64,000 bases of DNA from Ramlibacter tataouinensis TTB310 (lineage in GTDB: Bacteria; Pseudomonadota; Gammaproteobacteria; Burkholderiales; Burkholderiaceae_C), in the NCBI RefSeq assembly GCF_000215705.1, contig NC_015677.1, positions 3,050,001 through 3,114,000 of the forward strand, in the 5' to 3' direction. Positions 12,134 to 14,038 of the stretch are shown here, in pieces. Made by a program: the position numbers and the translations under genes. The notes below the pieces were generated by a model that saw only the letters and a list, made by a program, of their open reading frames with translations, did not search any database and was not told where the DNA came from. Position 1 is the stretch's first letter. Every line of letters begins with the position of its first letter.

Positions 12134-12874
12134 TCAACGCGTCAACGCCTCGCGCACCGCACCGAGCTGGCGCCGCGAAACGGCCAGCACCTCGTCGATG
12201 CCGGCCAGCCGCACCGCCCAGCCCTCGCCCTCTTCGGGGTCGTCGTGCCGTTCCAGCGCCCGCACCGCGCGCCGCGCCACCAGGGCATTGCGGTGCACGC
12301 GCAGGAAATGCGCCGCGTGGCGCTCTTCCAGCTCGCTCAGCGACACATCCAGAATATAGCTCTTGGCGGCCGTGCGAACGGTGACGTATTTGAGTTCCGC
12401 CTTGAAGTACAAAACCTCGACCAGCGGTACGCGCAGGACGACACCGCGGTCCTGGATGACCAGGGTTTCGGAGGTCGGATCGGCTTGTGGCCCGCTTCCC
12501 GCCTTCTTCAGGCGCTCTACTTTTTGTAGTGCTGCCTGCAGCCGCTCCAGCCGCACAGGCTTGGTCAGGTAGTCCGCCGCCTCCAGCTCGAAGGCGTGCA
12601 CCGCGTGCTCGGCATGCGCCGTGACGAACACCACCGGCGGCGGCTGCGGCAGGGATCGCAGCGCCTGCGCCAGCGCCAGCCCGTCGGCGCCCGGCATGCG
12701 GATGTCCAGCAGCGCGGCGTCGAAGTGCTGCCTGCGCAGCAGTTCCATGGCCTGCACCGCATTGCCGGCCTCTGCAGCCATCGTGGCGAGCGGCTGCCTG
12801 CAGTCGCCCAGCAGGGTGCGCAGGCGCGCGCGGGCCAGCGGCTCGTCGTCCACCACCAGCACCTGCAGCGTCAT
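12134..12874 (-). CDS. algR: AlgR-like LytTR response regulator
   Basis: A 246-residue response regulator. The receiver domain (1-120) has the acidic pocket D9/D10, phospho-acceptor D57 in LLDIRMPGADG, and Lys in YLTKPVRLERL. The LytTR DNA-binding domain (about 140-240) has VLYFKAELKYVTVRT, SLSELEERHAAHFLRVHRNALV and VSRRQLGAVREAL. AlgR/LytTR regulators bind direct repeats and control twitching, alginate or stress genes in Pseudomonas. The partner kinase is the upstream algZ. The ATG overlaps the stop of a 21-residue mini-ORF (ATGA), and its Shine-Dalgarno GGAGGT lies inside the repeated unit described separately. Confidence 0.9.
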   Translation of the reverse strand: MTLQVLVVDDEPLARARLRTLLGDCRQPLATMAAEAGNAVQAMELLRRQHFDAALLDIRMPGADGLALAQALRSLPQPPPVVFVTAHAEHAVHAFELEAADYLTKPVRLERLQAALQKVERLKKAGSGPQADPTSETLVIQDRGVVLRVPLVEVLYFKAELKYVTVRTAAKSYILDVSLSELEERHAAHFLRVHRNALVARRAVRALERHDDPEEGEGWAVRLAGIDEVLAVSRRQLGAVREALTR

Positions 12875-12936
12875 TCGACAACCTCCGCCCTGCGGGCTGC
12901 GGTGCCATGAGCCTTCGGAGCGGCCGGGCGGCTCAT
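12871..12936 (-). CDS. Mini-ORF 2 of the algZ-algR relay (21 aa)
   Basis: A 21-codon ORF beginning [19 protein letters not shown]. Its start overlaps the stop of mini-ORF 1 (TGATG, sharing base 12936), and its stop overlaps the algR start (ATGA, 12874-12871). The sequence is almost identical to mini-ORF 1 and comes from a 62-bp tandem duplication. The last codons contain GCGGAGGTT, which is the only good Shine-Dalgarno for algR. A coding role for the peptide is not shown. A role as a ribosome relay coupling algZ to algR is inferred from the perfect stop/start overlaps. Confidence 0.5.
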   Translation of the reverse strand: MSRPAAPKAHGTAARRAEVVE

Positions 12937-12998
12937 CAGAAAACCTCCGCCCTGCGGGCTACGGTGCCATGAGCCTTCGGAGCGGCCGGGCGGCTCAT
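12880..12998. repeat. Tandem duplication, 57-bp units with 62-bp period
   Basis: Unit A is 12880-12936 and unit B is 12942-12998. They differ at a single position (12899 G versus 12961 A) and are separated by five bases. Each unit contains an inverted repeat ATGAGCC/GGCTCAT around a GC-rich loop and, read on the minus strand, an ATG at one end and GCGGAGGTT at the other. The duplication lies exactly between the algZ and algR coding regions. It is too regular to be chance. Confidence 0.9.
12936..12998 (-). CDS. Mini-ORF 1 of the algZ-algR relay (20 aa)
   Basis: A 20-codon ORF ([20 protein letters not shown]). Its ATG overlaps the algZ stop (ATGA, 12998-12995), and a GGAGGTT inside the last algZ codons serves as its ribosome binding site. 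Its own TGA overlaps the ATG of mini-ORF 2. The peptide is basic and Ala/Arg/Pro-rich with no recognisable domain. The arrangement suggests that ribosomes leaving algZ are passed through two short ORFs before reaching algR. I cannot tell whether the peptide itself has a function. Confidence 0.5.
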   Translation of the reverse strand: MSRPAAPKAHGTVARRAEVF

Positions 12999-14038
12999 AG
13001 AGGAACCTCCATGCGCACCTGGTACACCCCGTCCTTGAGCACGGTCTGGAACTGGCCCTGCACGTCGTGCAGCAGGCGCAGCCGGTCGCGCACGTTGTCC
13101 TGCGCGACGCCGTGGCCGGGCCGGCCCTGGCCGGCCGGCACGGTGTTGGTCACCTTGATCACCACGGTGCCGCTGCGCCGCTGGGTGCTGATGCGCACCT
13201 GCGCGCCGGCGGCGCTGGGCTCGACGCCGTGCTTGACCGCGTTCTCCACCAGCGGCTGCAGCACCAGCGGCGGCACCTTGGCGCTGCCGGCCCGCGCGTC
13301 CAGCGACCACTCCACCTGCAGCCGCTCGCCGAAGCGCACCTGCTCGATGTCCAGGTAGCGGCGCGCCAGCGCCACTTCCTCGGCCAGGGTCACGGCCTCG
13401 CCGGGGTCCGCCAGCGCATGGCGGAACAGGTCCGACAGGTCCTCCAGGATGGCCTCGGCGCGGGCGGGATCCTCGCGCACCAGCGTGATGGCGCTGTTCA
13501 GGGTGTTGAACAGGAAGTGCGGCCGGATGCGCGCCTGCAGCTCGGACAGGCGGGCGGCCGTGGCGGCCGGCGTGCGGCCCTTGGCGCGCCACACCAGGGC
13601 GGCCACCAGGGCCGCGGCCAGCAGCGCGCCGGCGAAGGCCGAGGCCAGCCAGGGCTGCTCGCCCGCAGGCCCGGCCAGGCCGGACAGCGCCAGCATCGCG
13701 CAGCCGTACAGGCCGGCCACCGCGCCCAGGGCCACGCCGCCGGCCTGCTGGGCCCAGGGCCGCAGGCGGGCCAGCAGGCGCTTGCAGCTGCAGGCCGCGA
13801 TCAGCCAGGCCAGCGTTGCTGGCAGCACCGCGCCGCTCAGGAGCGACAGGCGGGCCAGCCAGTCGATGAAGCCCGAGGCGCCGAACATCACGCCCACGCC
13901 CGCCACCGCCTCGACGAACAGCACGGCGCGCAGGACCACGCCCACGTGGCAGGCGTCGAACACCAGCACCCGCGACGGCCGCACCGGCACGGCGGCCGGC
14001 AGGTCGGCGAAGCTCGATAAAATTTGCGAGTCCTTCAT
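12995..14038 (-). CDS. algZ: AlgZ/LytS-family sensor histidine kinase
   Basis: A 347-residue kinase. Four hydrophobic segments fill residues about 30-150, followed by the His_kinase domain of the LytS/AlgZ (FimS) type: [18 protein letters not shown] with the phosphoryl histidine near residue 174, and a compact ATPase domain with [18 protein letters not shown] (N box) and [17 protein letters not shown] (G box). In Pseudomonas the pair AlgZ-AlgR controls type IV pili and alginate. Pilus assembly genes occur elsewhere in this window. It is divergent from argH across 41 bases, the classic argH-algZ-algR order. The last codons supply the ribosome binding site for mini-ORF 1. Confidence 0.88.

Follow-up and report, generated by a model that had tools for sequence, protein, structure and literature searches.

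The window analysed here is a stretch of 64,000 nucleotides of the Ramlibacter tataouinensis TTB310 genome, and the locus under study comprises an algZ-type sensor kinase gene, two mini-ORFs, and an algR-type response regulator gene that follow one another on the same strand (Table 1). As given in a preliminary description of this DNA, the algZ stop, mini-ORF 1 (20 aa), mini-ORF 2 (21 aa), and the algR start were found to be joined by the overlaps ATGA (12998-12995), TGATG (12938-12934), and ATGA (12874-12871; all on the minus strand). The mini-ORFs are carried by two repeat units that differ at 4/62 positions (38, 58, 61, and 62); one of these lies in the first 57, in agreement with the single substitution over 57 bases described earlier. 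GGAGG is present in both units 7 nt before the next start, which bears out the earlier account of the unit as a self-contained combination of start, short ORF, ribosome-binding site, and overlapping stop/start. The 3' end of algZ contains a further GGAGG, which is probably the former Shine-Dalgarno (SD) sequence of algR and now the putative SD of mini-ORF 1, and a GGAGGTNCC-like stretch before the algZ stop is kept in most relatives. The names algZ and algR are fair by domain content, with no equivalog model over its cut-off; in NCBIfam, the regulator scored best against BtsR, though below cut-off, and no model matched the kinase.

Table 1. Features of the algZ-algR junction, in window coordinates
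Feature	Position	Strand	Basis or remark
algZ-type sensor kinase gene	12995..14038	-	His_kinase PF06580; TGA inside ATGA of unit 1
GGAGG in algZ 3' end	13006..13010	-	7 nt before first ATGA; sequence
Repeat unit 1, 62 nt, algZ-proximal	12937..12998	-	
Mini-ORF 1, 20 aa, ending in TGATG	12936..12998	-	
Hairpin 1 of unit 1, ATGAGCC...GGCTCAT	12969..12998	-	compensatory change; folds run on unit 2, no better than shuffles
Hairpin 2 of unit 1, GCCC-GCA-GGGC	12949..12959	-	compensatory change
GGAGG of unit 1, putative SD for mini-ORF 2	12944..12948	-	sequence; SD-like motif before right RTGA in arrays generally
Repeat unit 2, 62 nt, algR-proximal	12875..12936	-	
Mini-ORF 2, 21 aa, ending in ATGA of algR	12871..12936	-	
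Hairpin 1 of unit 2	12907..12936	-	compensatory change; fold no better than shuffles
Hairpin 2 of unit 2	12887..12897	-	compensatory change; fold no better than shuffles
GGAGG of unit 2, putative SD for algR	12882..12886	-	sequence
algR-type response regulator gene	12134..12874	-	Response_reg + LytTR

Within the window, a 30-nt left-arm pattern (up to three mismatches) matched these two units only, whereas 100 shuffles gave 0.00 matches on average. Beyond it, the units belong to a family of dispersed repeats of about 59-65 nt. In the home genome, a single contig of 4,070,193 bases, 13 matches exceeded 70 bits, both algZ-algR units included, and these 13 good copies occupy 12 gene junctions. 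Across the genus, 32/60 genomes (home included) matched at E <= 0.01, with at most 15 candidates scored per genome, and a second genome of the genus, G057, held at least 60 matches (40 of 69 candidates scored). In the GTDB family, at least 68/399 genomes and at least 35/141 genera matched at E <= 1e-5 when two candidates were scored per genome. The class sample yielded 2/369 matching genomes, both of the same family, and the order sample, searched with a 65-nt query, yielded 5/300, again all of that family, with none outside it in either sample (E <= 1e-4, two to three candidates per genome). A pattern scan of named genomes returned 18 stretches, comprising 10 in Ramlibacter, 7 in one 'Comamonadaceae bacterium', and 1 in Variovorax. 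Phage carriage of the repeat was rejected, as a search of 50,697 phage records (E <= 1e-3) gave no match, nor did one of IMG/VR with a single exact pattern.

A profile search of the fetched loci retained 209 hits, of which, after removal of same-place repeats, 157 units could be parsed and 37 could not; the latter lack a recognised loop, SD, left RTGA, or right RTGA and stand outside the frame counts given below. The 157 parsed units represent 149 distinct sequences, with an ATGA-to-RTGA spacing of 59-68 nt. Arrays of 1 to 4 units were present at the fetched loci, so the earlier proposal that units can be added with the coupling chain left intact holds. The two algZ-algR units may have arisen either by tandem duplication or by two insertions, a choice for which the distances between neighbouring units were not decisive: the 10 adjacent pairs of G057 differed on average at 1.2/40 nt, compared with 2.8 for 1116 other pairs (a value inflated by indels), and the two algZ-algR units showed 1 difference compared with 2.9 in the same kind of comparison.

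The copies share a single orientation and lie at the starts of genes, in most cases on a start/stop overlap, where the left ATGA combines the upstream stop with the mini-ORF start and the right RTGA combines the mini-ORF stop with the downstream start. In the home genome, all 13 good copies share this orientation ahead of co-oriented open frames. The right end is ATGA at 12/12 home junctions, and its start opens a frame of at least 190 codons at 11 of them (46 codons at L002); the left TGA closes a long upstream frame at 10/12, the upstream gene apparently ending earlier at L010 and L013. A two-sided ORF test, requiring at least 80 open codons (or an open frame to the locus end) both leading up to the left TGA and onward from the right RTG, was applied to 108 of 112 arrays, four being dropped for short flanks. 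Frames were open to the left TGA in 99/108 arrays, from the right RTG in 95/108, and on both sides in 89/108 (9/12 in the home genome and 32/40 in G057), whereas only 192/2533 control RTGA sites of the same loci (7.6%) were open on both sides. The preliminary description had named a predominance of non-coding sites lacking overlaps as the finding that would speak against it; such a predominance was not seen. An SD-like motif preceded the right RTGA in 103/103 arrays, where it belongs to the element, and it also preceded the left ATGA in 54/108 arrays, compared with 82/648 windows further upstream, an excess that is expected if many of these sites were working start sites before insertion.

Exceptions to this placement were also recorded, and 19/108 arrays failed the two-sided ORF test. 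Three copies (L105, L106, and L113) have no right RTGA, their tail continuing with no obvious ATGA or GTGA start. A diverged home-genome copy, L014 (G000:C1:1717729-1717782), lies at a convergent gene end with CTGA at the upstream stop and no downstream start, and also matches the 65-nt type. Three plasmid records carry copies. One, from Variovorax, precedes an annotated hydrolase, with 62 nt from the element's ATG to the GTG start of the hydrolase. The gene upstream of this copy is divergent, which places the copy off any stop/start overlap. On another Variovorax plasmid (L286, 1501-1560), a copy whose spacing is 60 nt forms, by annotation, an in-frame N-terminal extension of PhnK that begins at the ATGA ending phnJ. 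The third record has no annotation around its copy.

Empty sites were sought by joining the flanks of each home copy without the repeat and querying the joined sequence against 59 genomes of the genus. All 29 relatives' loci returned lacked the repeat, and they cover 6 of the 12 home junctions. At the L004 junction, 8/8 relatives read ATGA at the aligned place; at other junctions, some relatives read TTGA or CTGA or are spaced. At algZ-algR, the repeat was absent from 24/24 same-genus relatives (4 of them among the 29 loci), and 11/24 have the exact -4 overlap, in which the in-frame start precedes the stop by one base, the others having gaps or other spacing. For example, G047 reads GGTATGACGCTGCA where the home genome has CTCTATGA-[58]-ATGA-[58]-ATGACGCTGCA. 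No transposition event was observed among these genomes; with one genome per species, the set contains no closely matching pairs that differ in the presence of a copy.

The side of insertion was assessed at seven junctions that read ATGA...GTGA when filled, an eighth such junction having yielded no relatives. The set comprised 62 loci, with home orthologs included and the filled source loci excluded. An overlap was readable in 51/62 loci and was ATGA in 47 and GTGA in 4, compared with an A:G ratio of 24:12 among unfilled overlaps of the fetched loci; of the 11 loci with no readable overlap, one (L305, G047) is itself filled. One of the four GTGA overlaps, L205 (G030), looks like an eroded copy; it shares its junction with L043 and has the left end GTGA, which suggests decay in place. 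Over all parsed units, GTGA was found at 21/157 right ends and 8/157 left ends. The base before the left ATGA was C in 84/108 arrays compared with 14/36 unfilled overlaps (P = 3e-5; the control, 36, is small). These observations point to the left ATGA being the old joint and the right RTGA being part of the element, or else to a later change from ATG to GTG. A strict target-site duplication was set aside, as the left ATGA occurs with right GTGA.

The two hairpins of the unit are supported by comparison between units, which revealed strong compensatory change. Pairing held in 96.6% of cells in a set of 58 units of 62 nt and in 94.5% in a set of 22 units of 65 nt. Double-changed cells numbered 36 in the 58-unit set, compared with 5.1 in shuffled sets and at most 6 with the partners slid, and 34 in the 22-unit set, compared with 10.5 and at most 4, respectively; stem arms of quite different sequence remain complementary. 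Two further measures were weaker: 19 and 39 of 500 shuffles (58- and 22-unit sets, respectively) attained the observed count of further pair types, and 34 of 500 attained that of double-changed pairs in the 22-unit set. A single unit folded no better than its own shuffles (z -0.41 and -0.74), and in approximately 10 units with GGCGA in the right arm, hairpin 1 is largely lost.

Paired hairpins of this kind, together with a preferred short target, are also what a REP-like element moved by a RAYT-type Y1 transposase would have, with the placement at gene starts left by selection alone. This explanation shares mobility with the one we prefer and differs from it on the mover and on the choice of target. 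A Y1_Tnp match was found in 57/59 genus genomes, both with and without copies. However, no significant copy was found within ~1.5 kb of a Y1_Tnp gene in eight genomes (best E 0.34), G051 and G058 have Y1_Tnp and no match to the unit, and G037, with 17 unit matches, shows no Y1_Tnp, although this genome is only 75% complete. RAYT was rejected as the mover, with no significant copies near its gene in those eight genomes and no evident link to copy load, and no other mobilising enzyme was found. The fixed orientation at start codons also argues against such an element, and we consider this explanation unlikely. By eye, a different palindrome adjoins the Y1_Tnp gene in eight loci (L089-L096); these TTGGGGTCAGATTCCAATT-like palindromes lie, at several of the loci, upstream of an apparent gltB.

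Alternatively, the repeat might be a regulatory RNA, a hairpin that occludes the ribosome-binding site, or a promoter-bearing repeat, kept for control of the downstream gene. The conserved pairing and the position of the SD, which abuts hairpin 2, are in keeping with this. However, the presence of the repeat varies between species at one junction, and cells with G-T and A-C partners were both rare (10 and 5, respectively), with nothing to favor pairing in RNA over pairing in DNA. A scan of 12700-13200 for promoters of the sigma-70 type found no promoter-like site. We regard control of the downstream gene as quite improbable. In the same region, no terminator was found by consensus, and Rfam gave three weak matches in 12600-13300, none over the gathering score and none on the repeat.

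The relay architecture is general and not special to algZ-algR, a result that bears on the earlier proposal of a translational spacer dedicated to this operon, in which the number of units would set the kinase:regulator ratio. The architecture would permit such a device, with two units here and 1 to 4 elsewhere, but the same unit stands at many other junctions and is absent from algZ-algR in every one of the relatives mentioned above. The proposal was not upheld, and a dedicated spacer appears very unlikely.

Unit length showed a bias with respect to reading frame. The ATGA-to-RTGA distance was 2 mod 3 in 134/157 units, 0 in 21, and 1 in 2; in class 2, the mini-ORF closes on the next joint, and in class 0, it continues without a change of frame into whichever gene or unit follows. 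These counts are not independent, as copies share ancestry. The 25 length haplotypes, some of which possibly stem from ambiguous SD parsing, split 14:9:2 (classes 2, 0, and 1), and random re-pairing of segment lengths gave P 0.019 for 14 or more in class 2 and P 0.004 for 2 or fewer in class 1. Before the right RTGA, a stop in the mini-ORF frame was present in 0/134 class-2 units, compared with 9 and 46 of 134 for the other two frames; in class 0, an in-frame stop was present in 2/21. At four loci of G057 (L064, L156, L157, and L170), tandem 63-nt units with the inner starts ATGCTCC share one open frame. We read the bias in length and frame as a probable constraint on ribosome passage and not on the peptide, a reading that the shared ancestry weakens. 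A conserved small peptide as the point of the repeat, which the preliminary description had allowed for in suggesting that the peptide may itself act, is most improbable and was rejected, because despite the open frame in 134/134 class-2 units, synonymous changes were not enriched (62/240 single-change codons, compared with an expected 98/315 changes placed uniformly, on slightly different bases), indicating no coding constraint.

Taken together, the two mini-ORFs are likely to be head-to-tail copies of a short, mobile-looking interspersed element for which gene starts, and chiefly stop/start overlaps, are the insertion sites. The most likely point of insertion is immediately 3' of a (C)ATGA joint. 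Its ATGA would stay as the upstream stop and become the start of a mini-ORF of 20-22 codons, and the right end of the element would supply an SD, 7 nt, and RTGA, the last serving both as the mini-ORF stop and as the start of the gene downstream. On finishing algZ, a ribosome could then reinitiate on mini-ORF 1, then on mini-ORF 2, and then on algR, and each start in the chain would additionally have its own SD. With this relay and these SDs, insertion would cost the host little, and its effect on algR may have been near neutral.

A more specific account is possible, although we hold it with somewhat less than even confidence. The repeats may be selfish elements that target the translation-coupling joint itself, with a trans-acting enzyme that reads a DNA hairpin and inserts the repeat 3' of CATGA. 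The element would carry a full initiation cassette, and selection would hold its length, so that a passing ribosome would in every case arrive at the gene that follows, reinitiating there when the length is 2 mod 3 and reading through in frame when it is 0 mod 3. If this were true, the repeat would represent a previously undescribed family and a second origin of coupling-preserving mobile DNA apart from the mycobacterial interspersed repetitive units (MIRUs), in a lineage far from mycobacteria, and it would show mobile DNA using the start/stop overlaps of operons as a safe target by means of its own ribosome relay. The natural junctions with 0 to 4 units and both frame classes would make termination-reinitiation testable in natural operons.

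The repeat was then compared with known systems. Apart from the Beta-proteobacterial repeat element (BRE), we recognised no description of this element in the open-licence literature, and in the R. tataouinensis genome paper (PMC3164672) the word 'repeat' occurs once, on assembly, with 'intergenic' and 'palindrom' absent. According to the section on BRE in PMC3110155, this element is dispersed and sometimes tandem in Bordetella and Comamonadaceae, some copies overlap ORF ends by a few bases, and 4/13 listed Bordetella loci lie between convergent genes. The full length of BRE in Bordetella is given as 75-91 bp, with partial copies of ~40-60 bp also counted (PMC3110155), compared by description with the 59-68 nt spacing of the 157 units here; unlike for the present repeat, that section describes no coupling or target. 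BRE may be a relative of the Ramlibacter repeat, judged by description and not by sequence.

REPs are extragenic. The repeat resembles REP/RAYT systems in being a short element with palindromic hairpins and compensatory change and in the presence of a RAYT-type gene in the genome. It differs from them in having no RAYT-flanking copies in the eight genomes, in its fixed orientation at start codons in place of extragenic sites in either orientation, and in carrying an SD and a start/stop. Insertion 3' of a fixed short target, as in IS200/IS605-derived elements, may or may not apply to the repeat; the observations that bear on it are the empty overlaps (ATGA 47, GTGA 4) and the C at -1 (84/108 compared with 14/36, a small control). 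Termination-reinitiation coupling at ATGA overlaps, as described in part of PMC6728339, involves the same kind of joint, which is doubled here by the inserted repeat.

The closest known kind is the MIRU. Like MIRUs, the Ramlibacter repeat is short and dispersed, single or in tandem, and occupies start-codon sites, carrying an ORF whose coupling to the following gene is at -4 nt, exceptions to this coupling being the 21/157 parsed units at 0 mod 3 and the 2 in neither class. Supply et al. 1997 reportedly gave the MIRU target as DTGA. The present repeat differs in its hosts, which are Ramlibacter and other Burkholderiaceae (GTDB sense) where those of MIRUs are mycobacteria, and in its length of 59-65 nt compared with 53/77 bp; the likeness is judged from description. 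Hairpins that covary and a mod-3 bias in length are described here for the Ramlibacter repeat. A 2025 review (PMC12548453) portrays MIRUs as apparently mobile, with insertion at start codons and the repeat ORF coupled at -4 nt. Tandem MIRUs also lie between a kinase gene and a regulator gene, senX3 and regX3, where, according to a passage in PMC4213456, they are reported to drive regX3 expression.
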